Below the pieces are notes generated by a model, which searched no databases, was not told the origin of the DNA, and saw nothing but the letters and a program-made list of their open reading frames with translations. Below, piece by piece: positions 1-61,131 of a stretch of DNA of 64,000 nt. Position numbers and translations under genes: made by a program. Every line of letters starts with the position of its first letter. The stretch's first letter is position 1. Source of the stretch: Notolepis coatsorum (Eukaryota > Chordata > Actinopteri > Aulopiformes > Paralepididae); contig OZ020586.1 in the NCBI GenBank assembly GCA_963971535.1, positions 76,670,703 through 76,734,702 on the forward strand, given 5' to 3'.

Positions 1-2591
1 GCTTCAAAATCAATAAGTTGGAAGTTGTATTTGTTGAGACACAGTTTACAAACATCTTCCTTTCGTATATACTGTATATATTATGATGCACAATCCATTC
101 CTCGGATTGTAATGATTGCAATCCTATACACTGTTTTGATAATGGTTAATATTTTGATAAAAGGTAATTTACTGTATTTGTATGGTATTTACATACTTAA
201 AGTAGAAAAACAAAAGTAATCTCTAAAATAATACAGTGAAATTCAATTTTTTTAATTTGATTTCTTTTTACAGATTTTTTTACCTGAAACACTGGAGAAT
301 AACTGCTTCATTTTACTTAGTTTCTTCGGTAGTAATGATACTGTTGTATTACATTACATCATATATTTATGAATGATGTTGACAGATGGATGGCTGTATT
401 ACTGAGAATGTAATGAAAGCATAACTCGAAGTGCTTTACAATGAAATAACTGCATATCTTTTTTCAGTATGGGAGAAAAAGTCTAATAATGCTTTTTACA
501 AAATTATGCACATCATTCCTGATGAGACTGCTCAATTTGAGGTATTACCAGTGACTGTGGTGCAAAAACTCTGGAGTTTGGGAAGGACAGACGGATGATA
601 GTCGCAGCAAAAAATAGACATGTTGGCTAAACCAATTGAATTTGAAGAGTTGTTTCTGCCTCTATTGCATTATATTGCAAGGGAGTTTAATGGCATTATC
701 GCATTCTGCAAAAACAAGTAGCCTATCAGAGGATATGGATGAGGTCAAGCTATGATTCCAAACATTCCAATGTTATAGTCCCGTGAAATACCGTCCTTGC
801 CGAACTCAATGCCATAGATTCATCATTCAGCCCATTTTACCAGAGGCAATGACGTTTAGATCAAGGTGAAAATCATTGGAATGTGGGCACGGCCTGTACA
901 GCAATACTCTAGTTTTAAATGCAAATGTGTAATTCACACCTGCCCTCATGTTAACTAAATGTAGCCCCAATAGCTTCATCATTCAACACATTTGATCTGA
1001 GACAATGAAGTTTAGATGGGGTGAAAATCACTGGAATGTGGGCCAAACCATTGTAACACACAGATTTTGGTTCAACTGATATCAGGCTAAGGTTCACTCA
1101 AACTAGATTTTTATCTCAAATGTGATATCCCCAATGCATATAATTTAACATTGAAACATTTTCTTCTTTGAATTTGAAATATTGTGTAACGTTACCGTTA
1201 TCTAATTAGTAACTGGCAACTGCAGATGTCTGCCCCATGTCTATACCCCACAATGCAAAGTGTCTAACGCTATAGCTTAATTGTAGATTCTAAACATAAT
1301 GAGGTAACGCAGCTACCAAATGTTATCTTTAATCAAAGTGTGTAATGTTAATCCACAACAGCGACTTTTGGTATATGACATATCAATAGAAATACATTTA
1401 CAAAAATACAAATGAAATACATTTCAAATTAATTCCACAATTCTTTGCGATAGACTTATATCAATACACAAACAAATTTAAATTGATGACATTAGATCGG
1501 GTGTAGCTAATCTAAATAGTGTGCATCATTTTCAAAACTATATACTGTATTTTGAGAGTAAATCAAGCATAATAAACATTCATGTTCTAATGAAGCCTGA
1601 GAAACCAAGTTTGCACTTCACCGCATAGGTCCTTGTGAATAGCTAATGTCTATTTTGTAGTTGTAAACAGTGATCCCCTCATTAAAGTGGCCAATATCTG
1701 AAGAGGGCAGTGATGGATGAAGTGTGATTGTTATTATTTAATAAGTATATAGGGTATACAATGGAAGGAATTTGTATTTCTTTAGTCTAAGATAGTGATC
1801 CATAATCAGAAAATGTCCATATTATTTCAGCTGCTTCTGTTCTAAATACACAGATCGCTATAGTCTTGGACCGTTATTCATATTCCAATGGTCCCCCTTT
1901 ATCACTTCCATTGTCCTGTTTAAAGATAGAAAATAAAATTTAAATAAACAAATGAACATGACTGAGACCCAGTCTGGTACACATTAATAAACACATGAAC
2001 AACATACTTCATGCATTTTCCTCTGGAGGGACTGAATACAGTATATTTCTTACTGCTAATCTGCGATTTTAGGCAATATAGTGTTGCTATAGAAACATGT
2101 TTAAGAAATCCAAAATCTCCCATGCTAACAAACTATTGTATGCAGCTCTACAGACTAGTGATATATAAGGAGCAACAGGGAGGCAGGCCATGACATGTTT
2201 TCAGGATTCATTCATTCATTCAAGTTGAATTTCACACATTCAAAAAAGGTTTGGTTTGAGCAAGTCTATATAGGAAAACAATTTACACGACAATAAAACT
2301 ATAATATATTAAACCCAAGAGTATGGTAAGAGAGAGCTAAAAGTACAATCACCATCCATTGGTCCAGATAGGTTTGTTGGAAGTGGGCTGTTATGACGGC
2401 CATTGACCCCACCTCATCCAGATGAAAAGGCCCTCATCAACCTGGAATGCACACCTTGTAATGTTCTATTGTTCTGGCAGGACTTATATCCATAAGTCTG
2501 GGACTCCATCACTCCAGGTCCACAGCTCCACTGAGTGAGGTTCTGATACCACTGTGTGTGACTTGACTCTACAACCAACAAGAAGCAGAAC
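1..2591 (+). repeat. Unit 1 upstream spacer (partial, window starts inside it)
   Basis: This is homologous to the spacer at 3740-7135. It lacks about 107 bp present in every other checked unit: position 133 joins two sequences that lie at about 3866 and 3974 in unit 2. It has no LINE, so it reads straight through the site that is interrupted at 4914 in unit 2. No gene is recognised in it, apart from the relic frame described at 4308-4562. The last 250 bp are the promoter-proximal block shared with gene B. Confidence 0.85.
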
Positions 2592-3483
2592 ATGGCTGAG
2601 AACTTTGGAGCTCCCCTGCCTCTCCATGTGACACCCAACAGCACACAGAAAAAGATGTTTGATAATTGTAACACCCACCTGGCAATGATTGCCTTTGTCC
2701 TCCAAGACTCTCCAGGCAATATGCTCACCTTCTGTGAGGTAAGAACAAGCAAGCAACATATTAAGTTTCATTTGACTTTAAAAATGTTGTGATGTGAAAG
2801 CAAAATGTCCTTCTAATGTCTGATGATGCCTAATTTTCAATGTAACTTCTTTTGCAGTTGCTGGGAAATTTGGAAGCATTGATCTCAGGAAACAGAAAAG
2901 GCCTTGATGCCAAAATTAGAGTCTGCTTGTCGACCAACAAATGTTTTGTCAAGGTAAATGGAAAAAATCTTTATATCTCATTGATCATGATCACTAATTT
3001 AGTTGAACCAACATAGTTTTGGGTTAAAGATGAATTCTAACTTGTGTGTTCAATTGTTTCCAGATTCCATCAAATCCAGAAAAACCAAACAGTAAGAAAA
3101 ACTACTGGAAGCTTGACCACAGTCAAATTACAGGGAAGATGGTGCGTCGTCACTTCAAGGGAATTCTGGACTGGTTCCCTGAGTTGGTCTCCAAAGTTAT
3201 GGAGGCAGTCAGACCATCAGAGCACTACACTACTCTCCACTCCCCTGAACCTGCAGCCTACAGAGATGTTCAGATTAAATGTGAGGTGAAGTTCAGCAGT
3301 CCTTTTTCCATCGAATCCCTCCTGAAGAAAGACAGTCCCTCTGGCCTGGGCTCCAAGCCCTCTCCTCTGTTGGGCATTTCCAGCCTGCCAGTCAGAGTAG
3401 AACAGCAGCCTTGGTGCTCAGAGAAAGGAGTTGGAACAAAGAGGAAGTTGCTAATCTTTGCTAATATACTTAGTTTAATATAG
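2592..3483 (+). pseudogene. FoxH1-like gene A1, 3' truncated
   Basis: Exon 1 is 2592-2738, exon 2 is 2858-2953 and exon 3 starts at 3064. The first 81 residues and the forkhead remainder match intact copies A2, A3 and A5. At about 3447, right after the basic GTKRK stretch, exon 3 runs into the start of the next unit's spacer. The frame then adds eleven unrelated residues (LLIFANILSLI) and stops at 3481-3483, giving about 220 aa instead of 298. The proline/basic tail and the normal 3' UTR with its AATAAA are missing. It keeps its promoter and splice sites, so a truncated protein is possible. Confidence 0.8.
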
Positions 3484-3544
3484 TGGGAAAATACAGGCTC
3501 CCAAACATGCTTGTTCAAATCAAACACATCCCTGAATGCTTACA

Positions 3545-7135: not shown

Positions 7136-8261
7136 ATGGCTGAGAACTTTGGAGCTCCCCTGCCTCTCCATGTGACACCCAACAGCACACAGAAAAAGAT
7201 GTTTGATAATTGTAACACCCACCTGGCAATGATTGCCTTTGTCCTCCAAGACTCTCCAGGCAATATGCTCACCTTCTGTGAGGTAAGAACAAGCAAGCAA
7301 CATATTAAGTTTCATTTGACTTTAAAAATGTTGTGATGTGAAAGCAAAATGTCCTTCTAATGTCTGATGATGCCTAATTTTCAATGTAACTTCTTTTGCA
7401 GTTGCTGGGAAATTTGGAAGCATTGATCTCAGGAAACAGAAAAGGCCTTGATGCCAAAATTAGAGTCTGCTTGTCGACCAACAAATGTTTTGTCAAGGTA
7501 AATGGAAAAAATCTTTATATCTCATTGATCATGATCACTAATTTAGTTGAACCAACATAGTTTTGGGTTAAAGATGAATTCTAACTTGTGTGTTCAATTG
7601 TTTCCAGATTCCATCAAATCCAGAAAAACCAAACAGTAAGAAAAACTACTGGAAGCTTGACCACAGTCAAATTACAGGGAAGATGGTGCGTCGTCACTTC
7701 AAGGGAATTCTGGACTGGTTCCCTGAGTTGGTCTCCAAAGTTATGGAGGCAGTCAGACCATCAGAGCACTACACTACTCTCCACTCCCCTGAACCTGCAG
7801 CCTACAGAGATGTTCAGATTAAATGTGAGGTGAAGTTCAGCAGTCCTTTTTCCATCGAATCCCTCCTGAAGAAAGACAGTCCCTCTGGCCTGGGCTCCAA
7901 GCCCTCTCCTCTGTTGGGCATTTCCAGCCTGCCAGTCAGAGTAGAACAGCAGCCTTGGTGCTCAGAGAAAGGAGTTGGAACAAAGAGGAAGTTCAGCTGG
8001 GACGCTCCACCAGTGGAGATGCACATTCTTCAACCGGCAGGTAGAAGTTATGCCATCTACCCAGCAGGGGGCAGTGTGGACCATGGACTCAGTGGTTCTG
8101 GAAACAGGCCAGTCAAGAGGATTCGTATGTGTGCTGAGCCCTCAACCCTGATCTACACAAGACCCAGTGTTGCTCCTTATTTTACCAGCCGTCAGAACGG
8201 TTATGTCAATTATCCTCTACCAACATATCCCTGTGATGTTAAACGTTATTGTAAAATGTAA
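7136..8261 (+). CDS. Divergent FoxH1-like forkhead protein, gene A2 (298 aa, intact)
   Basis: Exons are 7136-7282 (49 codons), 7402-7497 (32) and 7608-8261 (217 plus stop), all phase 0 with GT-AG borders. Residues about 20-112 match a forkhead winged helix: HLAMIAFVLQDSP (29-41, helix 1), a region leading to LDAKIRVCLS (65-74, recognition helix position), CFVKIPSNPEKP, then YWKLD (95-99). The CFVK..PxKP..(N)YW layout and the MIA-VLQ-SP start are FoxH1-like. Residues 162-168, FSIESLL, fit the Groucho-binding eh1 motif known in FoxH1. Basic GTKRK (205-209) and KRIR (251-254) could be nuclear signals. The expected role is a nuclear transcription factor in Nodal/activin-Smad signalling, but H and N of the usual RHNLS are V and C, so DNA binding may differ. 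No clear PPNK-type Smad motif was found. Family level is fairly secure; FoxH1 orthology is not. Confidence 0.8.
8061..8074 (+). promoter_or_regulatory. CTCF-like consensus inside exon 3 of A2
   Basis: CCAGCAGGGGGCAG fits the CTCF core consensus. It lies in codons for PAGGS and so is also constrained by the protein. The same 14-mer occurs in each A exon 3 at 13767, 22923, 25052, 32585, 38585, 44585 and 51378 (+), and in reverse orientation in B copies at 15546-15559, 26844-26857, 46376-46389 and 58341-58354. A and B motifs point towards each other. Occupancy is unknown. Confidence 0.35.
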
Positions 8262-9370: not shown

Positions 9371-9852
9371 ATTTATTTACTGTAGAAAAGTGAAAGAGAA
9401 TTAGGTATTTGGACATTATGAGGACAGTATGCTATCATATCACAACATGTTTAACAGTTTAAAGGTTTATAGCTGGTTCTTACCTCAAAGAAGGTGAGCA
9501 TATTGTCTGGACAGTCTTGGAGGACAAAGGCAATCATTGCCAGGTAGGTGCTACAATTCTCAAACATCATTTTCCGGGTGCTGTTGGATGTCACATGGAG
9601 AGGCAGGGGAGCTCCAAAGTTCTCAGCCATGTTCTGCTTCTTGTTGGTTGTAGAGTCAAGTCACACAGTGCATCAGAACCTCACTCAGTGGAGCTGTGGA
9701 CCTGGACTGATGGAGTCCCAGACCTCTGATATAAGTCCTGCCAGAACAATAGAACATTACAAGGTGTGCATTCCAGGTTGATGAGGGCCTTTTCATCTGG
9801 ATGAGGTGGGTGGGGTCAATGGCTGTGATAACAGCCCACTCCTGGACCAATG
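9371..9852 (-). pseudogene. FoxH1-like gene B2, exon 1 only
   Basis: Exon 1 is 9484-9630 on the - strand (49 codons, start codon at 9630), with a good donor. Intron 1 and its acceptor survive, but the sequence after the acceptor AG is TAA in the expected phase, because exons 2 and 3 were deleted with their flank. At most the first half of the forkhead domain, 49 aa, could be made. The B promoter-proximal block (9631-9852) is intact and homologous to that of A. Confidence 0.75.
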
Positions 9853-12841
9853 GATGGTGCTAATCTTTGCTAATATACTTAGTTTAATATAGTGGGAAAA
9901 TACAGGCTCCCAAACATGCTTGTTCAAATCAAACACATCCCTGAATGCTTACACTGTAAAAAAATAATGTTTTTTTCACGGGAAATTAACTGTATTATTT
10001 TACAGATTACTTTTGTTTTTCTACTTAAATGTAAATGCCATAAAAATACAGTAAATTACCTTTTATCAAAAGGCTCCTAAACATGCTTGTTCAAATCAAA
10101 CACATCCCTGAATGCCTACAGTTATTATTTTTTTCATATATTGCTTCAAAATCAATAAGTTGGAAGTTGTATTTGTTGAGACACAGTTTACAAACATCTT
10201 CCTTTCGTATATACTGTATATATTATGATGCACAATCCATTCCTCGGATTGTAATGATTGCAATCCTATACACTGTGAAAAAGAAGTCTGTACAAAAAAA
10301 CTGTAAATGTCTGGCAGCAACGGTTGTCAAATACTTACTGTTAAATTACAGTAAAATCTAATACATTTACAGATTACAATATTTTGATAATGGTTAATAT
10401 TTTGATAAAAGGTAATTTACTGTATTTGTATGGTATTTACATACTTAAAGTAGAAAAACAAAAGTAATCTCTAAAATAATACAGTGAAATTCCATTTTTT
10501 TAATTTGATTTCTTTTTACAGATTTTTTTACCTGAAACACTGGAGAATAACTGCTTCATTTTACTTAGTTTCTTCGGTAGTAATGATATACTGTTGTATT
10601 ACATTACATCATATATTTATGAATGATGTTGACAGATGGATGGCTGTATTACTGAGAATGTAATGAAAGCATAACTCGAAGTGCTTTACAATGAAATAAC
10701 TGCATATCTTTTTTCAGTATGGGAGAAAAAGTCTAATAATGCTTTTTACAAAATTATGCACATCATTCCTGATGAGACTGCTCAATTTGAGGTATTACCA
10801 GTGACTGTGGTGCAAAAACTCTGGAGTTTGGGAAGGACAGACGGATGATAGTCGCAGCAAAAAATAGACATGTTGGCTAAACCAATTGAATTTGAAGAGT
10901 TGTTTCTGCCTCTATTGCATTATATTGCAAGGGAGTTTAATGGCATTATCGCATTCTGCAAAAACAAGTAGCCTATCAGAGGATATGGATGAGGTCAAGC
11001 TATGATTCCAAACATTCCAATGTTATAGTCCCGTGAAATACCGTCCTTGCCGAACTCAATGCCATAGATTCATCATTCAGCCCATTTTACCAGAGGCAAT
11101 GACGTTTAGATCAAGGTGAAAATCATTGGAATGTGGGCACGGCCTGTACAGCAATACTCTAGTTTTAAATGCAAATGTATAATTCACACCTGCCCTCATG
11201 TTAACTAAATGTAGCCCCAATAGCTTCATCATTCAACACATTTGATCTGAGACAATGAAGTTTAGATGGGGTGAAAATCACTGGAATGTGGGCCAAACCA
11301 TAGTAACACACAGATTTTGGTTCAACTGATATCAGGCTAAGGTTCACTCAAACTAGATTTTTATCTCAAATGTGATATCCCCAATGCATATAATTTAACA
11401 TTGAAACATTTTCTTCTTTGAATTTGAAATATTGTGTAACGTTACCGTTATCTAATTAGTAACTGGCAACTGCAGATGTCTGCCCCATGTCTATACCCCA
11501 CAATGCAAAGTGTCTAACGCTATAGCTTAATTGTAGATTCTAAACATAATGAGGTAACGCAGCTACCAAATGTTATCTTTAATCAAAGTGTGTAATGTTA
11601 ATCCACAACAGCGACTTTTGGTATATGACATATCAATAGAAATACATTTACAAAAATACAAATGAAATACATTTCAAATTAATTCCACAATTCTTTGCGA
11701 TAGACTTATATCAATACACAAACAAATTTAAATTGATGACATTAGATCGGGTGTAGCTAATCTAAATAGTGTGCATCATTTTCAAAACTATATACTGTAT
11801 TTTGAGAGTAAATCAAGCATAATAAACATTCATGTTCTAATGAAGCCTGAGAAACCAAGTTTGCACTTCACCGCATAGGTCCTTGTGAATCGCTAATGTC
11901 TATTTTGTAGTTGTAAACAGTGATCCCCTCATTAAAGTGGCCAATATCTGAAGAGGGCAGTGATGGATGAAGTGTGATTGTTATTATTTAATAAGTATAT
12001 AGGGTATACAATGGAAGGAATTTGTATTTCTTTAGTCTAAGATAGTGATCCATAATCAGAAAATGTCCATATTATTTCAGCTGCTTCTGTTCTAAATACA
12101 CAGATCGCTATAGTCTTGGACCGTTATTCATATTCCAATGGTCCCCCTTTATCACTTCCATTGTCCTGTTTAAAGATAGAAAATAAAATTTAAATAAACA
12201 AATGAACATGACTGAGACCCAGTCTGGTACACATTAATAAACACATGAACAACATACTTCATGCATTTTCCTCTGGAGGGACTGAATACAGTATATTTCT
12301 TACTGCTAATCTGCGATTTTAGGCAATATAGTGTTGCTATAGAAACATGTTTAAGAAATCCAAAATCTCCCATGCTAACAAACTATTGTATGCAGCTCTA
12401 CAGACTAGTGATATATAAGGAGCAACAGGGAGGCAGGCCATGACATGTTTTCAGGATTCATTCATTCATTCAAGTTGAATTTCACACATTCAAAAAAGGT
12501 TTGGTTTGAGCAAGTCTATATAGGAAAACAATTTACACGACAATAAAACTATAATATATTAAACCCAAGAGTATGGTAAGAGAGAGCTAAAAGTACAATC
12601 ACCATCCATTGGTCCAGATAGGTTTGTTGGAAGTGGGCTGTTATGACGGCCATTGACCCCACCTCATCCAGATGAAAAGGCCCTCATCAACCTGGAATGC
12701 ACACCTTGTAATGTTCTATCGTTCTGGCAGGACTTATATCCAGAAGTCTGGGACTCCATCACTCCAGGTCCACAGCTCCACTGAGTGAGGTTCTGATACC
12801 ACTGTGTGTGACTTGACTCTACAACCAACAAGAAGCAGAAC
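9853..12841 (+). repeat. Unit 3 upstream spacer
   Basis: A complete spacer without the LINE and with the MITE-like inverted repeat. It separates divergently transcribed B2 (start 9630) and A3 (start 12842) by about 3.2 kb. The last 250 bp repeat the A promoter block. No confident gene is present. Confidence 0.8.
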
Positions 12842-13967
12842 ATGGCTGAGAACTTTGGAGCTCCCCTGCCTCTCCATGTGACACCCAACAGCACACAGAA
12901 AAAGATGTTTGATAATTGTAACACCCACCTGGCAATGATTGCCTTTGTCCTCCAAGACTCTCCAGGCAATATGCTCACCTTCTGTGAGGTAAGAACAAGC
13001 AAGCAACATATTAAGTTTCATTTGACCTTAAAAATGTTGTGATGTGAAAGCAAAATGTCCTTCTAATGTCTGATGATGCCTAATTTTCAATGTAACTTCT
13101 TTTGCAGTTGCTGGGAAATTTGGAAGCATTGATCTCAGGAAACAGAAAAGGCCTTGATGCCAAAATTAGAGTCTGCTTGTCGACCAACAAATGTTTTGTC
13201 AAGGTAAATGGAAAAAATCTTTATATCTCATTGATCATGATCACTAATTTAGTTGAACCAACATAGTTTTGGGTTAAAGATGAATTCTAACTTGTGTGTT
13301 CAATTGTTTCCAGATTCCATCAAATCCAGAAAAACCAAACAGTAAGAAAAACTACTGGAAGCTTGACCACAGTCAAATTACAGGGAAGATGGTGCGTCGT
13401 CACTTCAAGGGAATTCTGGACTGGTTCCCTGAGTTGGTCTCCAAAGTTATGGAGGCAGTCAGACCATCAGAGCACTACACTACTCTCCACTCCCCTGAAC
13501 CTGCAGCCTACAGAGATGTTCAGATTAAATGTGAGGTGAAGTTCAGCAGTCCTTTTTCCATCGAATCCCTCCTGAAGAAAGACAGTCCCTCTGGCCTGGG
13601 CTCCAAGCCCTCTCCTCTGTTGGGCATTTCCAGCCTGCCAGTCAGAGTAGAACAGCAGCCTTGGTGCTCAGAGAAAGGAGTTGGAACAAAGAGGAAGTTC
13701 AGCTGGGACGCTCCACCAGTGGAGATGCACATTCTTCAACCGGCAGGTAGAAGTTATGCCATCTACCCAGCAGGGGGCAGTGTGGACCATGGACTCAGTG
13801 GTTCTGGAAACAGGCCAGTCAAGAGGATTCGTATGTGTGCTGAGCCCTCAACCCTGATCTACACAAGACCCAGTGTTGCTCCTTATTTTACCAGCCGTCA
13901 GAACGGTTATGTCAATTATCCTCTACCAACATATCCCTGTGATGTTAAACGTTATTGTAAAATGTAA
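12842..13967 (+). CDS. Divergent FoxH1-like forkhead protein, gene A3 (298 aa, intact)
   Basis: Exons are 12842-12988, 13108-13203 and 13314-13967. The predicted protein appears identical to that of A2, including LDAKIRVCLS at the recognition-helix position and the FSIESLL eh1-type motif. It is the A member of the best-preserved convergent pair: its stop lies about 1.49 kb from the stop of B3. The polyadenylation signal is at 14056-14061. Exact identity with A2 and A5 makes recent copying or conversion more likely than long independent constraint. Confidence 0.8.
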
Positions 13968-44785: not shown

Positions 44786-46284
44786 ATGTAAATGTAAAAT
44801 GTTTTTTTTGTACATGCCACTTCTGCACTTATTTGTACATTATATTTGCTTACTTATCTTGGCACCTTTTTCAATAAAACACAAAAACAAACATTGTTAC
44901 TTACTGCTATCATTTATTTGTATGCATACAGATCTGAGATGAAGAATTTATAACTGAACATAATCAGAATCAGAAAGATCTTTATTGCCAAGTAAGTTTG
45001 CACACATACAAGGAATTTGTATTGGTTGTTGCAACATTAACAGACAATTAAAGTAGAATCATCAGTCATATATAAACTAAATTAGAATAAAAGTACAATA
45101 GAATATGGGCTGTACAATTGTGCAGTATTGTGCAAAAAGTATGAATAATCACGAAAAACTAACTATTAAAATAGTTTTACAGAATTACTTAATTGATTTA
45201 ATAACATATTGTAAAATATTATTATCCTGTATAAGTATAATACATGTGTATCAGGCTCAGTAATGTACCTTCCATACACCATTGACCTCTCACCTCAAGA
45301 TATATGAATGAAAACAGGCTCAATTGAACCACTCCACAGCTGATTTATGGTAGTGTGTTGCCATTTTGGGCCAATACCATGCTGTTTTAGGCATGCGGTA
45401 CAAATGTGTTGTCACAAATATATATTAGCCTATTCCATGGATTAGGTGTGGCTTTAAAGTTGAGACTTTTTTGGAATCCGGTGATGAAGCTTCCCACTTG
45501 GCAGGCCAAAAACATCTGATTGGTTATTGATGCATGGAGCTGTTGTTTTGGTCAATCAGATTTGAATCTGATAATAAATGAGTTATGGCTATTATGCCTT
45601 AATCTGGTAAATGTAATGTTGCTTTGTGGTGGAATTTCCCTTTACAAATGGAATTACAGACACAGAATGTTCTCAATGTAAGATTGTGAACCACTAAAAT
45701 TAACATTAAATTAACAAATAGTAGTGTAACAGTAGGTGTAACAGGCTGTTGGGATTTGTTGCGTGTGTCTTCATTAGTGGAATTAATTTATTAACAATTG
45801 ACAGAAAGGAATACATAAATATATAAATAATTTAAATGTCATTATAGAATTGAAAATGTTTCGTTTTCTCATGTATAAATATTGAATCTCAATCACAAGG
45901 TAACATTGAATTTTTTTATACCACATATGATGTTGGTGGCCGACAGCAGGGTTCATCCCCGGAACATTTAGGGCCAGAAGACCAAATTCCACAACATAAT
46001 CTAGTATTATTAATCAGAGTATTATTATATATTATATTTGGTCTACATTGATGCAGTTTACCTATTGAGAGTGAACAACTAGTTAACTATTAACAAGGTA
46101 TAATACAATACAAATACAAAATAATATATGATAGCAAAACATAGTTTGGTTTAATATTTTATTGAAAAAAATATCTTCACAAGAAGGCAAGTATATATAT
46201 AACATATTTACAGATTATGACATAACACAGGGATATTTGAGACAGAATAATCGTCCTGGGTTGGAAAGGAGCAATTCTGGGTCT

Positions 46285-47230
46285 TCAGATCACATAGATC
46301 AGGAATGAGGGATTAGCACACATACGAATCCTCTTGACTGGCCTGTTTCCAGAACCACTGAGTACATGGTCCACACTGCCCCCTGCTGGGTAGAACTGGT
46401 CACTTCTACCTGCAGGTTGAAGAATGTGAATCTCCACAGGTGGAGTGTCCCAGCTGAACTTTCTCTTTGTTCCAAATCCTTTCTCTGAGCACCATGGCTG
46501 CTGTTCTACTCAGACTGGCAGGCTGGAAATACCCAGAGGAGATGGTTTGGAACCCAGGCCAGAGGGACTGTCTTTCTTCAGGAGCGATTCGATGGAGAAA
46601 GGACTGCTGAACTTCACCTCACATTTAATCTGAACATCCAAAATGGAGACCAACTCGGGGAACCAGTCCATAACTCCCTTGAAGTGACGGCGCACCATCT
46701 TCTCTGTGATTTGACTGTGGTCAAGCTTCCAGTAGTTTTTAATATTGTTTGGTTTACCTGGATTTGATGGAATCTGGAAAGAATTTAACACGTTATAATT
46801 CAACTAGGCCTCAGAGACAATGTTGGTTCAACTAAACTGTAGTTATCACGATCAATGAGATATAAATATGTTTTTAAATTTACCTTGACAAAACATTTGT
46901 TGGTTGACAAGCAGACTCTAATGTTGGTCTCAATGCTTCTTCCTTTTCCTGACATCAATGCTGCCAATTGTTCCATTATCTGTAGAAAAGTGAAAGAGAA
47001 TTAGGTATTTGGACATTATGAGGACAGTATGCTATCATATCACAACATGTTTAACAGTTTAAAGGTTTATAGCTGGTTCTTACCTCAAAGAAGGTGAGCA
47101 TATTGTCTGGACAGTCTTGGAGGACAAAGGCAATCATTGCCAGGTAGGTGCTACAATTCTCAAACATCATTTTCCGGGTGCTGTTGGATGTCACATGGAG
47201 AGGCAGGGGAGCTCCAAAGTTCTCAGCCAT
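46285..47230 (-). pseudogene. FoxH1-like gene B10 with the same nonsense codon as B6
   Basis: The - strand exons are 47084-47230, 46884-46979 and 46285-46773. The TGA at 46510-46512 is at the same codon as in B6, and neighbouring substitutions are shared, so B6 and B10 are copies of one damaged gene. The predicted product is 168 aa with forkhead and FSIESLL but no C-terminal basic region. Confidence 0.8.
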
Positions 47231-50448: not shown

Positions 50449-51578
50449 ATGGCTGAGAACTTTGGAGCTCCCCTGCCTCTCCATGTGACACCCAACAGCA
50501 CACAGAAAAAGATGTTTGAGAATTGTAACACCCACCTGGCAATGATTGCCTTTGTCCTCCAAGACTCTCCAGGCAATATGCTCACCTTCTGTGAGGTAAG
50601 AACAAGCAAGCAACATATTAAGTTTCATTTGACTTTAAAAATGTTGTGATGTGAAAGCAAAATGTCCTTCTAATGTCTGATGGTGCCTAATTTTCAATGT
50701 AACTTCTTTTGCAGTTGCTGGGAAATTTGGAAGCATTGATCTCAGGAAACAGAAAAGGCCTTGATGCCAAAATTAGAGTCTGCTTGTCGACCAACAAATG
50801 TTTTGTCAAGGTAAATGGAAAAAATCTTTATATCTCATTGATCATGATCACTAATTTAGTTGAACCAACATAGTTTTGGGTTAAAGATGAATTCTAACTT
50901 GTGTGTTCAATTGTTTCCAGATTCCATCAAATCCAGAAAAACCAAACAGTAAGAAAAACTACTGGAAGCTTGACCACAGTCAAATTACAGGGAAGATGGT
51001 GCGTCGTCACTTCAAGGGAATTCTGGACTGGTTCCCTGAGTTGGTCTCCAAAGTTATGGAGGCAGTCAGACCATCAGAGCACTACACTACTCTCCACTCC
51101 CCTGAACCTGCAGCCTACAGAGATGTTCAGATTAAATGTGAGGTGAAGTTCAGCAGTCCTTTTTCCATCGAATCCCTCCTGAAGAAAGACAGTCCCTCTG
51201 GCCTGGGCTCCAAGCCCTCTCCTCTGTCCTCTGGGCATTTCCAGCCTGCCAGTCAGAGTAGAACAGCAGCCTTGGTGCTCAGAGAAAGGAGTTGGAACAA
51301 AGAGGAAGTTCAGCTGGGACGCTCCACCAGTGGAGATGCACATTCTTCATCCGGCAGGTAGAAGTTATGCCATCTACCCAGCAGGGGGCAGTGTGGACCA
51401 TGGACTCAGTGGTTCTGGAAACAGGCCAGTCAAGAGGATTCGTATGTGTGCTGAGCCCTCAACCCTGATCTACACAAGACCCAGTGTTGCTCCTTATTTT
51501 ACCAGCCGTCAGAACGGTTATGTAAATTATCCTCTACCAACATATCCCTGTGATGTTAAACGTTATTGTAAAATGTAA
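50449..51578 (+). pseudogene. FoxH1-like gene A11, frameshifted in exon 3
   Basis: Exons are 50449-50595, 50715-50810 and 50921 onward. Forkhead and FSIESLL are intact, but a net 4-nt insertion in a CCTCT-rich stretch (about 51220-51232) shifts the frame after SKPSPL. The altered frame stops at 51361, giving about 227 aa with an unrelated serine/arginine-rich tail. The original frame is still open to 51578 beyond the shift. The 5' part of exon 3 resembles A2 (NYWKLD, RRHF), while the 3' part has A6-type markers (HPAG, GTAAAT), so the copy is a recombinant. AATAAA is at 51667. Confidence 0.8.
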
Positions 51579-51881
51579 ATGTAAATGTAAAATGTTTTTT
51601 TTTGTACATGCCACTTCTGCACTTATTTGTACATTATATTTGCTTACTTATCTTGGCACCTTTTTCAATAAAACACAAAAACAAACATTGTTACTTACTG
51701 CTATCATTTATTTGTATGCATACAGATCTGAGATGAAGAATTTATAACTGAACATAATCAGAATCAGAAAGATCTTTATTGCCAAGTAAGTTTGCACACA
51801 TACAAGGAATTTGTATTGGTTGTTGCAACATTAACGTTAGGTTATGACTATAACCAAGTTCTGTTAGTTAGGGGCGATGCT

Positions 51882-52045
51882 TGGCTTCGCCTTCTGCACT
51901 ATCTCGCGTACGTGCACGCGTACTGAATAAACCACAAATGTACCTCTAATACCAGTATTAGTCTGACCACACCCCTCATCAGCTTACCTTCATAAGCAGG
52001 TGTGTGGTCACCTGCTCTCCTCCTTCCCAAGCTTTCACCACAAGG
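51882..52045 (+). repeat. DIRS-1 inverted terminal repeat, window-left (element 3' end)
   Basis: About 165 bp from the GGCTTCGCCTTCTGCAC region to CTTTCACCACAAGG, matching the reverse complement of about 56820-56985. The two arms differ slightly at the inner end (CCCAAGC versus TCGC). The outermost 46 bp (51836-51881) are unique to this end. Confidence 0.85.
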
Positions 52046-52071
52046 TGAGGTCAAGGGCTGCAGCGGCCGTC

Positions 52072-52168
52072 CGAAGCCAAGCATCGCCCCTAACTAACAG
52101 AACTTGGTTATAGTCATAACCTAACGTTCTGTATCGTTAGTGGCTTAGCTTGGCTTCGCCTTCTGCAC
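52072..52168. other. DIRS-1 internal complementary region (ICR)
   Basis: 52072-52125 is the reverse complement of the element's left end (51836-51889). The directly adjoining 52126-52168 is the reverse complement of its right end (56964-57006). The junction CCTAAC-GTTCTG is therefore the sequence expected if the two ends were joined in a circle. This is the diagnostic DIRS feature. Confidence 0.9.
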
Positions 52169-54928
52169 AAGGGAGGCCAAGCGGAGCCACTTGGCTGACA
52201 AATACACCCCGCTGACAGCCCCCCAAAACCATCAGAACAGGGAGGGCCGAGCCCCCCCGACCCCCCCTAATGGAGGGTATCCCCCCTATTAGAGGCTTCA
52301 CGGGAAGGCGACGGACCCGACCGTGCGAAGAGCTCTCAAGCAACTTAACGCACAGGGTGAGCAGACCGTGGCTTGACCCCACGACTACACACACGCACAA
52401 CCCGCATGCCACCCGGGAACGAACGGAGGAACAACCTCGTTACTGCCCCCAGAATCACGGGGTCAAGGGCAAACCCAACCCCGTGGCAAGGCCGTAGCAG
52501 CGGAGCGCGAAGGAAGACCCAGACCCACCAAAAGGACTGGACCCCCGGAATGGGGGCCCGGAGAAGTCCATGATGCCAGCATCAAGACCCCACCAGGGGG
52601 GCACCTAGTGACCCCGCCCCTCACATCGCCAGCGTATTCGGACAAAGGCCCCTCAGCCGAGCGGGCCCTGTCCCCCTCAACAGCACACCGCCTGGAACAC
52701 AAGCCCTGCAACAGGCAGACAGCATGGTCATAACACACAAGAGTTAACCAACGGAACAGGCAGTGCACCGGGGAAGACCAGGCAACAGGCTGTCAACCCA
52801 AGCCTGGAACAACTGCGGACGAGGCAGGCGCCAGAAAGGACAGCCGAAACAGCCGCCCCGGCGGAAGGGGCGTATGCTGGCGTTGTCGCATAACCAAGCT
52901 TTCAACAGCACGTCAGGAGCGGGATCCGTAGACCACACGGCCCCTGACAGCTGCCCACAGAAAAGCCCATACGATCGGCAGACGTCATGAACGTGCAGGG
53001 GCACCCTCAACCGGAGAACCGGGAGTTGACACTGCAGCAACACACCAGAGAACCAACCACCCAGGCATTACCCCATGCAACGGTTGGTCCCATAACCCCT
53101 CAGGAAAACCCCGAAACGCACCGGCGGTACCACCGCAGCCCGCGTTCCGGTTCCCAACAGGGCCATCCCGGGCCTACAGGTCAACGGGCATCACCCCGGA
53201 CCGGGCCCGGCGATACGGGGAGCACAGGATCCCAAAGGAGGTTAACCCCACCCAACAGGCTCCTCAGCGCCAAAACGCAAGAGAAGAGCGTAATATGGAA
53301 GACCAGCCCCCAGCACCCCGCACTCGGTACCAACAAGGGGTCCCATAACGCACAACCCTGTGACACCCGGATCGACCTAGCATTTTTCCCCCCGAAAAAA
53401 CCCTAAGTCCCTCAGGGTACCAGAACAGCAGATCTGCATCCCCAGCGGACAACGGGTGCACTGATCTGGACCAGCGCGACCAGAACCAGTCCCGTGCCCT
53501 AACCACGCCGACCTGCCAACCCCAGGAGAAGGGGCAGATATGCGCGTCTGATCCCAACATAAAAAGAAGGCGCCACCCAGACGTGTCGGTATGAACCGCG
53601 TCCGGCGGCCCACCCCTTGGGCGTGAGACCCTTCCCATATGCCCAGACCCATTCCGTCATCATCCCCTGACATGAACGGGAACCCATCGACAACACACAG
53701 GATGTCGGAAGAGGAAAAACCCCCATCCCAATTGCTCCATAAAAACGCTGTTTCACCAAAGCAAACGAGGCGCGCCAGTCAGCAACGGCCAAAGCACATC
53801 CTGAGCCAGCACTATGTGTGCGTTTGGACATACCCACATCAACAATAGGCCGGCTAGACCACCATATTGAATCCCCAAGACGCCCAGGGAAACGACAAGA
53901 GGGGCGAGATGCAATCAACTCCATGAATGAACATTCAACTCTTTATAAAATAAAGAAAAGGCATCACATGTATGACCTAACTGCACAGCTGGGAGTAAAA
54001 AACCCTGTGTTTTCACATGATTTTAATCCAGTCACTCCTCTTAATCAGAGTGTAAAACCAGATTCCCCCAGAAACACCTTCCCACATGAGACCACGGTCA
54101 AGAAAAAGATATGTAAACTGTGAGACACGTGACCAACAGACTCAAGTTTGACACAAAAACGAGCGCAGCAGGTTAAGTCCTGCGCTCTACCCTCGACATC
54201 TTTACGACACCAGCTCATGGAAGGCGTCGCCATAGCAACAACGCTATAACGGGCGGGGAAAACCCACCGGATCCTGTCATAACAGGAGTCGGTAGAATAC
54301 CCCTCCCCCCCCCCCCTCCCCCGCCAAGCACTGGCTTGGCCCTGACTGGCTTAGCAGGAGGGTCAACAACCTCTAAACCAATCAAGTGGGTAAAGGAGGG
54401 GTTTATCCGACACCCCCTCCCGAAAAACACACCTTCTATCCCTACACACAGAAAACAACCGTAGCCATTTTGAAAACCTCCGGTAGAACAAAACACATAT
54501 AGCATAAGCTAATACAATGTTAGCTACCCACAAAGTGTAAAAGGGATTACAACAAAAAACACAAGTCGCCTGTGCGTGAATCCCATACCCGCAGCCTAAG
54601 CTATAGGAAGACGTTGAACGAGAGTAATGGCTAGGCCATGAAAAGTGTGTACGAGCATTACTGCAACTAACAACACAGCGTTGTGAACACATACTTAGTT
54701 AAAGCAATGGAATATCACCAGTTCTAATTGCATGTGGAGCATCAAGCTAATAGAACCTATTACCGAGTGTAAGTTGCAGACCTTGCTTAAAAACTCGTAA
54801 CACAACACAACTCATTCCCCCAACGTAACAGGGTAGATTCATAAAACACAACCCCACCACATGATTTGTATTGAAGAAACACACAGTTTGTTCGGCCAAC
54901 CACAGTCCCCCTTATATCAGGGAACTTT
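52169..54928. other. GC-rich DIRS-1 interior without recognisable genes
   Basis: About 2.76 kb downstream of gag on the element strand, where RT, RNase H and recombinase would normally lie. Several overlapping open frames of 60-141 codons occur on both strands, as expected in GC-rich DNA. None shows an RT YxDD-type or recombinase motif. A C-rich run (about 54300-54322) interrupts it. It is either replaced sequence or a very decayed interior. Confidence 0.5.
54300..54322 (-). other. Homopurine/homopyrimidine tract in DIRS-1
   Basis: A C-run with two T interruptions (G-run on the element strand) could form a G-quadruplex in the element RNA. A similar G-run lies in DIRS-2 at 63585-63612. Confidence 0.4.
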
Positions 54929-54934
54929 TTTATT
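54929..54934 (-). terminator. Polyadenylation signal after the DIRS-1 gag ORF
   Basis: AATAAA on the - strand (within TTTTTTATTAAATAA) lies about 86 nt beyond the gag stop. It could end a gag-only transcript before the non-coding interior. Confidence 0.45.
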
Positions 54935-55019
54935 AAATAAATAATATGTGATCAAGGCACAAAATCATAGGGGGGCCGGGGAGGGTGTAGAGGAGGGGAC
55001 ACAGAGGGGGAAAAGTCAC

Positions 55020-56693
55020 TCAGCGGCGCCTGCCACCTCGCGCCGCTCGAGTCTGGCCACCCCGGGGAGCCCCGGAGGGACGGTAGGTTACAGTCTGCTG
55101 GACACGACGTTCCCTACCGTCTCCTCCGGTTCGGGATGGGCCGGCGGTGGCTGAAGCGTCGCCTCGTCTCCTAGCCCTCTTGGCAGGGCCAGCAGCGGCG
55201 GCGGGAGCAGTGGTAGCGGCGACGGAGACAGCTCGACGTCGCGGAAGCCTTCTGCCCCCACCGGCAAGGACGGGAGGCGGAAAATGGGGTTGGAGGATGG
55301 ATCTCTCCTCTGCCATCTCTCTGCATGTTGAGGTCATCAATAGCAGGGCCTTCCCGAACAGGCCAGCGTCGGAGAGGTCGGCCGTCAGAAGAGGGGCTCT
55401 CTTCTTCTCTGGTACACGAGCCTGCTCCAGCCAAAGGTGACGCTGGCCCAGGGTGGCCAGGGCGCGCACTTTACCCATGGCTATGGCTAGCACCTGGGAG
55501 AGGTGCAGCACAGCTCCCGCAGCCTGGGTGATCTGATCGCACCTCACCTCGTTCAGATCCGCGCCGCCCGTCATTATCCCCGATACAAATCTAGCCAGGT
55601 GGGCGATGTTAGAGGCCGCAGCCAGCGACTGTGTACCGGCGATAAATGACTGGTCACCCCAATAAGCCAATCGCCTAGCCGACCTCCCCTGGAGGACCGG
55701 CTTGCATAGGGGCTCCCACACCATATCCGGACAGAGGAGCGCGGCCATCAGATTGTCAAGCCGAGGTACGCCCTCCCCCATACCTTTGACCAACCCCGAC
55801 ACCCGCGTAACTGGTACGTAGGCGGGAGTCAGTCCCATGATGTTGGAGACCGCCTGGCCCCGACGAACATAGGCCCCCATCGATGGGAAAAATGGGTAGA
55901 CAACGTCCACCCCTCTCACCGGGGGACGCTGCCAGGGATGGCCTATGAGGTCATCAGGGACAGGAGCAGGCAATGGCTGCGGCAGCGGCACACCGTTTGC
56001 AGCGGCGGCTACCGCCATGAGCTCGGGAAACAAGGCCCGCAGTTCCCCCTGCGGACCCTCCTCCACCGACCCCGCATCCCTCGCATACAGCAGGCTGCGA
56101 CTGGTCAAGGAGCCACAATCCGATGCGGCCGACAGTAGGGCATCCTGTTGATGAGGCCAAGGTGGTTCCCCGACATCCTCGAACAAGGCGCCCCGTGGAG
56201 CCATTTCCCCCCACCCCGGGGTCTCCGGAGGAGGGATACTCTCCTCCACGGGACCATCATACAAGAACCCGTCCGCCTCCTCCATGAAGTCTTCAGTTTC
56301 CATCAGAAATCCAGAGTCGGACGCGGCCTCGCTGGTCTCCAGCAATTCCCCAAACCCAGGCCGTTCGCGTCTGCACGCCACCATGTGACGACGTGAGCGA
56401 GCAGACGCAAAAAGTTTTCGTCGCAAATCCCCTGGCTCTAAGACAATCCCCCGTTCATCAACGGGCGATTCCCCAGAAACAGAGGAACCAGAGTCGAGAT
56501 CAGGCCATCGCCGGAGCGACGGCTCCGAACCCTCGGCTCGTCGGTGAGGAAAACTATCCACCGGCAGTCTCCCGGGCTGGGTCGGCAACCACGAGAGTGG
56601 CAACAGCCCAGCACCGGAACGCACGACGGAGGCGGGAATGGAGAATCGGTGGTGAAGAGTAGGTCTAGCGGGTCTACTCTCCGCGGAATACAT
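55020..56693 (-). CDS. DIRS-type Gag-like protein (557 aa)
   Basis: A single uninterrupted ORF with ATG at 56693 and stop at 55020. The N-terminal half is acidic and low-complexity (runs of E, D and P around 115-190). The middle has PFFPSMGAYVRRGQAVSN, then about residues 320-440 YWGDQSFIAGTQSLAAASN, LGQRHLWLEQ and DAGLFGKAL. This is the arrangement I know from Gag-like proteins of fish DIRS elements and related LAP2-alpha-like domain proteins. The C-terminus is strongly basic (RRLPRRR, KRARRR, GGRRR), fitting nucleic-acid binding. It would package element RNA. No zinc knuckle and no RT fusion are seen. A TATATAAG box lies only about 19-26 nt before the ATG (56712-56719, - strand), so the true start could be a later Met. 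The family call rests on motif memory. Confidence 0.75.
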   Translation of the reverse strand: MYSAESRPARPTLHHRFSIPASVVRSGAGLLPLSWLPTQPGRLPVDSFPHRRAEGSEPSLRRWPDLDSGSSVSGESPVDERGIVLEPGDLRRKLFASARSRRHMVACRRERPGFGELLETSEAASDSGFLMETEDFMEEADGFLYDGPVEESIPPPETPGWGEMAPRGALFEDVGEPPWPHQQDALLSAASDCGSLTSRSLLYARDAGSVEEGPQGELRALFPELMAVAAAANGVPLPQPLPAPVPDDLIGHPWQRPPVRGVDVVYPFFPSMGAYVRRGQAVSNIMGLTPAYVPVTRVSGLVKGMGEGVPRLDNLMAALLCPDMVWEPLCKPVLQGRSARRLAYWGDQSFIAGTQSLAAASNIAHLARFVSGIMTGGADLNEVRCDQITQAAGAVLHLSQVLAIAMGKVRALATLGQRHLWLEQARVPEKKRAPLLTADLSDAGLFGKALLLMTSTCREMAEERSILQPHFPPPVLAGGGRRLPRRRAVSVAATTAPAAAAGPAKRARRRGDASATAGPSRTGGDGRERRVQQTVTYRPSGAPRGGQTRAARGGRRR

Positions 56694-56819
56694 TATGACC
56701 CAAACCTTTTTCTTATATAAACAAGTGAGAGAAGAAAAAGGTTAGGCACAATGTAAACCTAGTCACAACTCTTTTCAACTTATCAACGACACGTCAAGTG
56801 GGGTACTACCGAGGCACTT

Positions 56820-56985
56820 CCTTGTGGTGAAAGCGAGAAGGAGGAGAGCAGGTGACCACACACCTGCTTATGAAGGTAAGCTGATGAGGGGTGTGGTCAG
56901 ACTAATACTGGTATTAGAGGTACATTTGTGGTTTATTCAGTACGCGTGCACGTACGCGAGATAGTGCAGAAGGCGAAGCCAAGCT
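56820..56985 (-). repeat. DIRS-1 inverted terminal repeat, window-right (element 5' end)
   Basis: Reverse complement of 51882-52045. The outer end reads GTTCTGTATCGTTAGTGGC on the element strand, the same as the left end of DIRS-2 at 61129. It lies directly upstream of gag and may carry the promoter. Confidence 0.85.
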
Positions 56986-57006
56986 AAGCCACTAACGATA
57001 CAGAAC

Positions 57007-58249: not shown

Positions 58250-59189
58250 TCAGATCACATAGATCAGGAATGAGGGATTAGCACACATACGAATCCTCTT
58301 GACTGGCCTGTTTCCAGAACCACTGAGTACATGGTCCACACTGCCCCCTGCTGGGTAGAACTGGTCACTTCTACCTGCAAGTTGAAGAATGTGAATCTCC
58401 ACAGGTGGAGCGTCCCAGCTGAACTTTCTCTTTGTTCCAACTCCTTTCTCTGAGCACCATGGCTGCTGTTCTACTCTGACTGGCAGGCTGGAAATACCCA
58501 GAGGAGATGGTTTGGAACCCAGGCCAGAGGGACTGTCTTTCTTCAGGAGCGATTCGATGGAGAAAGGACTGCTGAACTTCACCTCACATTTAATCTGAAC
58601 ATCCAAAATGGAGACCAACTCGGGGAACCAGTCCATAACTCCCTTGAAGTGACGGCGCACCATCTTCGCTGTGATTTGACTGTGGTCAAGCTTCCAGTAG
58701 TTTTTAATATTGTTTGGTTTACCTGGATTTGATGGAATCTGGAAAGAATTTAACACGTTATAATTCAACTAGGCCTCAGAGACAATGTTGGTTCAACTAA
58801 ACTGTAGTTATCACGATCAATGAGATATAAATATGTTTTTAAATTTACCTTGACAAAACATTTGTTGGTTGACAAGCAGACTCTAATGTTGGTCTCAATG
58901 CTTCTTCCTTTTCCTGACATCAATGCTGCCAATTGTTCCATTATCTGTAGAAAAGTGAAAGAGAATTAGGTATTTGGACATTATGAGGACAGTATGCTAT
59001 CATATCACAACATGTTTAATAGTTTAAAGGTTTATAGCTGGTTCTTACCTCAAAGAAGGTGAGCATATTGTCTGGACAGTCTTGGAGGACAAAGGCAAGC
59101 AGGTAGGTGCTACAATTCTCAAACATCATTTTCCGGGTGCTGTTGGATGTCACATGGAGAGGCAGGGGAGCTCCAAAGTTCTCAGCCAT
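58250..59189 (-). CDS. Divergent FoxH1-like forkhead protein, gene B11 (241 aa, intact)
   Basis: The - strand exons are 59049-59189 (47 codons), 58849-58944 (32) and 58250-58738 (162 plus stop). Layout, exon lengths and predicted exon-3 protein are the same as B3 (offset 42795), including the two-codon loss in exon 1, Arg retained where B6 and B10 stop, FSIESLL, and the short LIYVI end. Its partner A11 is frameshifted and now more than 6.6 kb away because of DIRS-1. B3 and B11 flank the degenerate middle of the array and are the only complete B frames. Confidence 0.75.
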
Positions 59190-59402
59190 GTTCTGCTTCT
59201 TGTTGGTTGTAGAGTCAAGTGCATCAGAACCTCACTCAGTGGAGCTGTGGACCTGGACTGATGGAGTCCCAGACCTCTGATATAAGTCCTGCCAGAACAA
59301 TAGAACATTACAAGGTGTGCATTCCAGGTTGATGAGGGCCTTTTCATCTGGATGAGGTGGGTGGGGTCAATGGCTGTGATAACAGCCCACTCCTGGACCA
59401 AT
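59190..59402 (-). promoter_or_regulatory. Promoter-proximal block of B11
   Basis: Same conserved block as for B3, ending at the unit boundary near 59403. Confidence 0.4.
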
Positions 59403-61131
59403 GGATGGTGCTAATCTTTGCTAATATACTTAGTTTAATATAGTGGGAAAATACAGGCTCCTAAACATGCTTGTTCAAATCAAACACATCCCTGAATGCT
59501 TACACTGTAAAAAAATTATGTTTTTTTCACGGGAAATTAACTGTATTATTTTACAGATTACTTTTGTTTTTCTACTTAAATGTAAATGCCATAAAAATAC
59601 AGTAAATTACCTTTTATCAAAAGGCTCCTAAACATGCTTGTTCAAATCAAACACATCCCTGAATGCCTACAGTTATTATTTTTTTCATATATTGCTTCAA
59701 AATCAATAAGTTGGAAGTTGTATTTGTTGAGACACAGTTTACAAACATCTTCCTTTCGTATATACTGTATATATTATGATGCACAATCCATTCCTCGGAT
59801 TGTAATGATTGCAATCCTATACACTGTGAAAAAGAAGTCTGTACAAAAAAACTGTAAATGTCTGGCAGCAACGGTTGTCAAATACTTACTGTTAAATTAC
59901 AGTAAAATCTAATACATTTACAGATTACAATATTTTGATAATGGTTAATATTTTGATAAAAGGTAATTTACTGTATTTGTATGGTATTTACATACTTAAA
60001 GTAGAAAAACAAAAGTAATCTCTAAAATAATACAGTGAAATTCCATTTTTTTTATTTGATTTCTTTTTACAGATTTTTTTACCTGAAACACTGGAGAATA
60101 ACTGCTTCATTTTACTTAGTTTCTTCGGTAGTAATGATATACTGTTGTATTACATTACATCATATATTTATGAATGATGTTGACAGATGGATGGCTGTAT
60201 TACTGAGAATGTAATGAAAGCATAACTCGAAGTGCTTTACAATGAAATAACTGTTTTTTCTCTTTTTTCAGTATGGGAGAAAAAGTCTAATAATGCTTTT
60301 TACAAAATTATGCACATCATTCCTGATGAGACTGCTCAATTTGAGGTATTACCAGTGACTGTGGTGCAAAAACTCTGGAGTTTGGGAAGGACAGACGGAT
60401 GATAGTCGCAGCAAAAAATAGACATGTTGGCTAAACCAATTGAATTTGAAGAGTTGTTTCTGCCTCTATTGCATATTTATATTGCAAGGGAGTTTAATGG
60501 CATTATCGCATTCTGCAAAAACAAGTAGCCTATCAGAGGATATGGATGAGGTCAAGCTATGATTCCAAACATTCCAATGTTATAGTCCCGTGAAATACCG
60601 TCCTTGCCGAACTCAATGCCATAGATTCATCATTCAGCCCATTTTACCAGAGGCAATGACGTTTAGATCAAGGTGAAAATCATTGGAATGTGGGCACGGC
60701 CTGTACAGCAATACTCTAGTTTTAAATGCAAATGTATAATTCACACCTGCCCTCATGTTAACTAAATGTAGCCCCAATAGCTTCATCATTCAACACATTT
60801 GATCTGAGACAATGAAGTTTAGATGGGGTGAAAATCACTGGAATGTGGGCCAAACCATAGTAACACACAGATTTTGGTTCAACTGATATCAGGCTAAGGT
60901 TCACTCAAACTAGATTTTTATCTCAAATGTGATATCCCCAATGCATATAATTTAACATTGAAACATTTTCTTCTTTGAATTTGAAATATTGTGTAACGTT
61001 ACCGTTATCTAATTAGTAACTGGCAACTGCAGATGTCTGCCCCATGTCTATACCCCACAATGCAAAGTGTCTAACGCTATAGCTTAATTGTAGATTCTAA
61101 ACATAATGAGGTAACGCAGCTACCAAATGTT
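59403..61131 (+). repeat. Unit 12 upstream spacer, interrupted by DIRS-2
   Basis: Spacer sequence homologous to 9853-11571. Private changes include a TTTTTTCTC insertion near 60254 and an added ATTT near 60473, both inside the relic frame. It stops at CCAAATGTT (61124-61131), where sister copies read on into ATCTTTAATC. Any unit 12 gene A would lie beyond the element. Confidence 0.8.

Follow-up and report, generated by a model that had tools for sequence, protein, structure and literature searches.

The forkhead gene foxh1 is generally treated as a single developmental gene. Tandem macrosatellites or clusters of transcription-factor genes are represented by the DUX4/D4Z4 and mouse Obox loci, for which embryonic expression is known; both are homeobox loci, and DUX4 is a retrogene. 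Within the Fox family, one FOXH1 is listed in the available excerpt of a survey of Labeo rohita (PMC12370200), and a lineage-specific expansion is described for foxQ2 in Spiralia in the title and the start of the abstract of PMC9539403. Furthermore, the accessible part of PMC1939712 presents Xenopus FoxH3, a FoxH1 paralogue without the EH1 motif that is predicted to function as activator only, together with Smads. Among the matches listed for foxh1 duplication or expansion in a mostly open-access literature collection, no title or displayed abstract described a multicopy foxh1 family.

In this study, a window of 64,000 nucleotides from Notolepis coatsorum (contig OZ020586.1, positions 76,670,703 to 76,734,702) was analyzed; coordinates given below refer to this stretch. 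Its genes resemble the DUX4/D4Z4 and Obox loci in forming a tandem array of transcription-factor genes, but they encode forkhead instead of homeobox proteins and, in contrast to the retrogene DUX4, have kept the introns of foxh1. As in Spiralian foxQ2, a diverging Fox class was amplified, although the classes differ, and nothing similar to a hundred-copy inverted-pair array appears in the title and abstract start of PMC9539403. Like FoxH3, the array genes are foxh1 paralogues with altered effector parts; as far as the excerpt of PMC1939712 goes, they are its mirror image, since FoxH3 lacks EH1, whereas the array kept EH1 and lost the Smad part.

Array sequences occupy positions 127-61131 of the window and represent a sample of a larger array of about half a megabase on a single chromosome (C7, ~76.58-77.13 Mb), which continues well past the window on both sides; self-comparison detected no array similarity in 61132-64000. 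The initial annotation had described a multicopy array with five A copies comprising exons 1-3, four A copies reduced to exon 3, three A exon-1 fragments and five B copies including one with exon 1 only. Exon mapping yielded the same numbers (the B copies being four with exons 1-3 and the exon-1-only copy), and the extension to the whole chromosomal array further bore out the multicopy character. Full-length A exon 1 was found 51 times in the whole array, always on the plus strand (51/51), and B exon 1 was found 55 times, always on the minus strand (55/55).

Among the A genes of the window (all plus strand), three are intact, namely those at 7136..8261 (298 aa; exons 7136-7282, 7402-7497 and 7608-8261), 12842..13967 (the reference copy; exons 12842-12988, 13108-13203 and 13314-13967, with AATAAA at 14056-14061) and 21998..23123 (exons 21998-22144, 22264-22359 and 22470-23123). 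The copy at 2592..3449 is truncated in exon 3 (386 of 654 bp remaining), and that at 50449..51578 is a pseudogene with an exon-3 frameshift. Exon-3-only fragments are located at 24601..25252, where the fragment is fused to the antisense of a B 3' flank, and at 32134..32785, 38134..38785 and 44134..44785, in the first, second and third of three 6.0-kb units; fragments of exon 1 (78 bp each) lie at 30916..30993, 36916..36993 and 42916..42993. On the minus strand, the B gene at 15458..16394 has an open frame of 241 aa and AATAAA at 15333-15328; 6 bp are deleted from its exon 1, within the sequence for forkhead helix 1. The B gene at 58253..59189 likewise has an exon 1 of 141 bp and an open exon-3 frame. 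An in-frame TGA interrupts exon 3 of the B gene at 26756..27698, two TGA were counted in exon 3 of the similar copy at 46288..47230, and 9484..9630 comprises exon 1 only.

Direct self-matches of at least 800 bp in the window are not due to chance; they showed identities of 97.2-99.98% and extend up to 12 kb. The units are arranged head to tail and contain one transcription-factor gene or more; their spacing falls into classes of ~6.77, 6.11, 5.38, 3.73 and 3.57 kb, and three 6.0-kb deletion-derivative units (28323..46323, plus strand) are 99.97-99.98% identical. Inverted similarity between A and B is limited to the gene body of ~0.8 kb at 84.7-86.5% identity (82-85% when more gaps are counted), and therefore long high-identity palindromes are absent. 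Accordingly, the palindromic pairing that had been proposed in the sense known from sex chromosomes was not found; A and B represent an old inverted pair (82-86%) within head-to-tail units of ~99% identity. The array is broken by an insertion (51836..57003) without array similarity and with 57% GC over 52001-56000, which contains a retroelement-like frame of 573 aa on the minus strand (55020-56741). The left flank of the array is rich in TE, and scans of Rfam and for tRNA genes gave no matches.

Assignment of the genes to the forkhead family, with FoxH1 as closest relative, was corroborated by several lines of evidence. The spliced array protein matched the Pfam Forkhead domain (E 5.9e-9), which was found only with the spliced protein, exon 3 alone giving no match. 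FoxH1 was the best solved-structure match (E 2.6e-12) and occupied the top three of 30 matched PDB sequences. Both introns, located after LTFCE/LTLSE and KCFVK/DCFVK, share identical position and phase 0 between the array and canonical foxh1 (FAST-1/schmalspur) of the same genome, as read from frames and GT/AG borders and not from transcripts. Moreover, a single local alignment between array and foxh1 runs from the forkhead through the EH1 (Groucho-binding) motif. Its section from wing to EH1 scored 60 compared to a shuffled mean of 25.7, a score reached by 0 of 500 shuffles. Two results point in the opposite direction. When A was compared by BLASTP with exon 3 of foxh1 alone, the alignment was confined to the wing (25.8 bits, E 0.001) and did not include EH1. 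In the forkhead tree, the eight sequences from other Fox classes group in a clade of their own (96/99), but under midpoint rooting the array is placed on a long branch outside all other Fox sequences and not within FoxH1. Judged from these sequence comparisons, the array genes derive from foxh1.

An amplification of FoxH1 itself is not supported. Canonical foxh1 resides on a different chromosome (C29), where it is itself duplicated, the alignable parts of the two copies sharing 97.5-98.9% identity. It agrees with 7yz7 in 84 of 87 residues (compared by eye), and its EH1 octamer FAIDSLLH is the same as in zebrafish, as given in the portion of the source available; both features point to a ray-finned fish. 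Canonical FoxH1 comprises 528 aa with the Asp/Arg/His base readers, the PPYSY arm and a tail of ~210 residues following EH1, all of which distinguish it from the array proteins of 241-298 aa. According to the accessible text of PMC9701222, the base readers of FoxH1 are Asp143, Arg146 and His147. The corresponding positions are Ala/Arg/Val in A and Thr/Arg/Val in B, i.e., only Arg is kept, and helix 3 of the predicted proteins is devoid of the two residues, Asp and His, with which FoxH1 recognizes GG/GT in its site. The PPYSY arm is missing; by inspection, the stretch corresponding to the basic N-terminal arm before the forkhead reads KNYQRYPKPPYSY in foxh1 and STQKKMFDNCNTH in A, the latter not qualifying as such an arm, and the lysines near wing 1 (KPNSKKNYW) are still present. 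EH1 is a short motif occurring in many Fox proteins. In the array DNA examined, the context pattern F[SC]SPFS, which misses copies changed within that context, was matched 34 times, and EH1 reads FSIESLL in 33 of these; the exception, FSIQSLL, belongs to the pseudogene at 68 Mb. Located C-terminal to the forkhead, FSIESLL fits the EH1 pattern given in the excerpt of PMC1939712. No similarity to the Smad-interaction region of FoxH1 after EH1 was detected (score 33 versus mean 34.9, p 0.60). The array proteins are thus predicted to consist of a diverged winged-helix domain and EH1, without the C-terminal region of the FoxH1 Smad-interaction domain, and their genes are, by this prediction, not FoxH1 functionally.

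Based on these results, an intron-bearing foxh1-derived paralogue may have been duplicated to an inverted pair of A (plus) and B (minus), which unequal crossing-over then probably propagated in head-to-tail orientation, giving approximately 50 genes of each type in addition to fragments; this exchange mechanism is deduced from the block structure. The proteins would act as Smad-independent nuclear regulators recruiting Groucho/TLE, with changed or relaxed specificity of DNA binding, and higher copy number would raise dosage; the germline or the early embryo, in which foxh1 is active, would be the most likely site. The tentatively preferred reading, whose likelihood may come close to even, is a young family of Smad-independent regulators with EH1 that is specific to the lineage and was amplified through unequal crossing-over. 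The lineage-specific regulatory cluster postulated by the initial annotation is supported as probable by forkhead membership, closeness to FoxH1 and the multicopy array.

The main rival, considered rather unlikely, is a macrosatellite with passengers, in which unequal exchange multiplied the unit irrespective of phenotype, and most of the genes are remnants, now in decay, of an older paralogue that had a function. The many truncated units, the blocks of 6.0 kb (in the window), 3.57 kb and 3.73 kb that contain no complete A-B pair and the TE-rich left flank are in line with it, as is the high identity within blocks, where young copies may have lacked time for decay. However, uninterrupted exon 3 at normal spacing was observed for 36 of the 51 A genes with full exon 1 (four of the 15 failing these criteria did so solely by shorter exon spacing), exon 2 and splice sites having been checked in individually examined copies only. 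Nine of 12 A copies examined in this way encode the full 298 aa. Among B pairs, 33 of 47 contain a single stop, assumed to be the terminal one, and 14 failed, including ten with three stops in the left block. Passenger status is furthermore opposed by constraint on the C-terminal part of exon 3 between A and B (dN/dS 0.30-0.34; nonsynonymous versus synonymous p 0.0026) across a dS of ~0.2, and by nonsynonymous differences among the 12 A copies (8/660) below synonymous plus intron ones (13/429; site totals approximate, p 0.042).

Conflict-driven amplification at a dosage or drive locus (a sex-linked or meiotic-drive amplicon), with A and B as opponents or alternating partners, appears improbable. 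Extreme copy number and the strict polarity of A and B would suit it, as would the fast amino-acid change in helices 2-3 (exon 2: 15.5-16 nonsynonymous versus 1.5-2 synonymous differences between A and B), but long palindromes are absent, and forkhead dN/dS between A and B, while >1, is not significantly so (domain p 0.47; exons 1+2 p 0.22). Together with the whole-gene value of 0.60-0.63, this makes relaxation possible and weighs against the preferred reading, as do the A genes and B pairs failing the above criteria and the occurrence of EH1 in many Fox proteins. Still less probable is a dominant-negative FoxH1 mimic that would lack specific DNA binding and compete with FoxH1 for its partners, e.g., Groucho. 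Retention of EH1 in proteins that have neither the PPYSY arm nor the base-reading Asp and His would fit, but the helix-3 Arg and the wing-1 lysines are still there. An assembler expanding one or few copies is very hard to reconcile with zero N in 264 kb checked and with blocks possessing their own unit lengths, variants, junctions and insertions, even though the first two 6.0-kb units differ at only 1/6000 positions (the third is offset by an indel, rendering its ungapped count of ~1080 differences meaningless beside the self-match identity).

The divergent intergenic stretch from B (minus) to A (plus) at 9841..12631 contains all three FoxH1-type sites (TGTGKATT) of its unit, at 11600, 11713 and 12095. 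Three sites were observed versus 1.21 expected in one unit (p 0.114) and versus 0.53 in the intergenic stretch (p 0.017), and their clustering within 520 bp gave p 0.007, all p values being nominal with nine motifs tried; of the other eight, only the forkhead site TGTTTAY was clustered (nominal p 0.012). The window-wide excess (27 versus 10.56 expected) results from ninefold repetition of these three sites. Two older units contain them as well, but at ~97% identity these units are too similar to show constraint on the sites. A far-reaching and doubtful extension would see a hundred-copy, Smad-blind, Groucho-recruiting repressor system made from the Nodal effector FoxH1, whose A and B proteins might read different DNA via the fast-evolving helix 2 and helix-3 start and might be switched on via FoxH1-type sites in their own divergent promoter, acting as a brake, tunable by copy number, on targets of Nodal or of zygotic genome activation or on selfish DNA.

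If the preferred reading is true, about a hundred young derivatives without the Smad part, with the corepressor motif kept and the DNA-reading helix altered, would constitute a natural experiment in rewiring a maternal pioneer factor, and the array would be the forkhead counterpart of the DUX and Obox loci.

A gene A, the three-exon gene on the forward strand of the array, encodes a product of 298 aa that matched the Pfam Forkhead family (E 5.9e-9), and the top three of 30 sequences matched in the PDB are FoxH1 structures. The genome also carries canonical foxh1, on another chromosome (C29). Two copies lie there about 18 kb apart (C29:37145501-37149500 and 37164001-37168000), either a tandem duplicate or an unpurged haplotype, with 97.5-98.9% identity between their aligned pieces. 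Exon junctions of canonical foxh1, read from frames, follow LTLSE and DCFVK, and those of the array gene follow LTFCE and KCFVK, all in phase 0. Within the forkhead tree, eight rows of other Fox classes formed one clade (96/99) containing neither FoxH1 nor the array, which was placed on a long branch, outermost under midpoint rooting and with no resolution within FoxH1. A single local alignment between A and foxh1 extends from the forkhead domain through the Groucho-binding motif EH1 and ends there; when only foxh1 exon 3 was compared with A by BLASTP, the wing part was the sole match (E 0.001). We conclude that foxh1 DNA, and not an mRNA copy, gave rise to the array. No multicopy foxh1 was found in the part of the literature covered.

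The window (C7:76670703-76734702, C7 being the array-bearing chromosome) is part of a 3.42-Gb genome. As deduced from self-BLAST of the window, 127-61131 is a single direct-repeat system broken at 51836-57003, with direct matches of at least 800 bp showing 97.2-99.98% identity and gene bodies of A and its reverse-strand partner B matching in inverted orientation at 84.7-86.5% over about 0.8 kb. For the copy census, the reference A copy (12842-13967) was divided into upstream region, exons, introns and 3' flank, each mapped back onto the window. Exon mapping yielded five A genes (three intact, one cut, one frameshifted), four exon-3 and three exon-1 fragments of A, and four B genes plus one lone B exon 1, the same numbers as counted for A, B and fragments in the initial annotation. 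In the 6.0-kb units, the exon-1 fragment stops at a junction (30993) and the exon-3 fragment starts at 32134, abutting the antisense of the B 3' flank, which indicates that these units are deletion derivatives. The 5.2-kb insertion at 51836-57003 features 57% GC and a strong AT skew (0.27) over 52001-56000; its 573-aa frame had no Pfam match, and the insertion may resemble a DIRS-type retroelement.

Genome-wide, A exon 1 gave at least 126 matches, every one on C7, which were typed by identity to the A query. A-type exon 1 accounts for 51 full-length matches (94-100% identity, all forward) and B-type for 55 (77-84%, all reverse; 51 full length, two cut, two with a 6-bp deletion), together spanning C7 76.58-77.13 Mb; short fragments and decayed copies make up the remaining 20. 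Exon 3 gave at least 199 matches, all on C7 among the matches listed. Since copy spacing falls into distinct blocks (about 6.77, 6.11, 5.38, 3.73 and 3.57 kb), it may be read as the outcome of repeated unequal exchange. Older exon-3 remnants in opposite orientation occur 110-150 kb left of the array (A-like at 76.431 Mb, reverse; B-like at 76.448 Mb, forward). A frameshifted foxh1-like remnant retaining intron 2 at C7 68.32 Mb (C7:68325001-68327500), 8 Mb away, is probably related to the array genes as an older, dispersed copy. Around the left end of the array and further to its left, 200 kb were read; many retroelement and transposase frames were detected there among the frames searched (Pao, chromodomain LTR type, RVT_1, Mutator). 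The left flank also contains a beta-catenin (ctnnb1) exon at 76.4226 Mb (C7:76422581-76422946), with the 76.431-Mb remnant about 8 kb away and the first full A gene at a distance of 160 kb.

Genome-wide intactness was assessed on exons 1 and 3 for A and B alike. Among the matches listed, exon 3 lies at the normal distance and reads without interruption in 36 of the 51 A copies with full exon 1; one further copy has a stop in exon 3, and the other 14 show a truncated, frameshifted, absent or displaced exon 3, four of these being open with exon 3 about 56 bp closer to exon 1. For 13 of these 36 genes, the exon-3 search gave an open frame of 223 rather than 227; in the one such copy fetched, the final residues are swapped via a junction near the exon-3 end. 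Among the matches listed, exon 3 follows at normal distance in 47 of the 55 B copies, and 33 of these 47 pairs contain a single stop; in the copies inside the window, this stop is the terminal one. In the left block (C7:76585188-76639306), ten B copies share one TGA and two TAG in the exon-3 match and represent a homogenised broken version of B.

Selection was evaluated by comparing A with three B copies. dN/dS amounted to 2.4-3.1 in exons 1 and 2, 1.5-1.9 in the forkhead as a whole, 0.30-0.34 in exon 3 beyond the forkhead and 0.60-0.63 for the whole gene. On rounded counts, the contrast between parts (p 0.004-0.008) and the C-terminal constraint (p 0.0026) were significant; the excess in the forkhead alone (p 0.47) and in exons 1 and 2 (p 0.22) was not. 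A and B are up to 93.5% identical in the 210 bp upstream versus 78% in intron 2, so gene conversion may have caused the low synonymous divergence of exon 1. Twelve A copies, two of them broken, differ by 24 nonsynonymous and 8 synonymous changes; with exon-3 positions past 616 dropped, where one of the copies continues into other DNA, 8 nonsynonymous and 6 synonymous changes remain, plus 7 in introns. The nonsynonymous deficit among these copies (p 0.042) is a weak result with approximate site totals.

According to PMC9701222, the helix-3 base readers of FoxH1 are Asp143, Arg146 and His147. The corresponding residues are Ala, Arg and Val in A and Thr, Arg and Val in B, uniformly in all fetched copies that fit the pattern used to find helix 3 (14 matches of A type, 8 of B type); in the 68-Mb pseudogene, one extra match, Phe replaces Val. 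On inspection, the basic arm preceding the forkhead domain is gone. EH1, searched with a pattern from PMC1939712, is kept as FSIESLL in 33 of 34 matches, and an EH1-type motif arose in 0.1% of 2000 shuffled A C-termini. Local alignment found no counterpart in the array protein for the approximately 210-residue foxh1 tail after EH1, where the order of parts outlined in PMC9701222 places the Smad-interaction domain of vertebrate FoxH1. The array represents the reverse of Xenopus FoxH3, which lacks EH1 and, according to PMC1939712, is predicted to work only as an activator with Smads, whereas the array keeps EH1 without a counterpart of the Smad part.

In the divergent intergenic stretch shared by A and B, each unit carries three FoxH1-type sites (p 0.007 for the cluster, with nine motifs tried), and the TGTGKATT sites of the examined unit fall within this stretch. 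These matches, at window positions 11600, 11713 and 12095, are on one strand, and the set is repeated nine times (27 matches in the window). The three sites per unit provide a weak hint that FoxH1 or the array family itself might drive A and B. In the preferred reading, to which a macrosatellite carrying passenger genes is the main alternative, A and B would be nuclear regulators recruiting Groucho/TLE independently of Smads, their DNA reading would be altered or weakened, and their dosage would be set by copy number.
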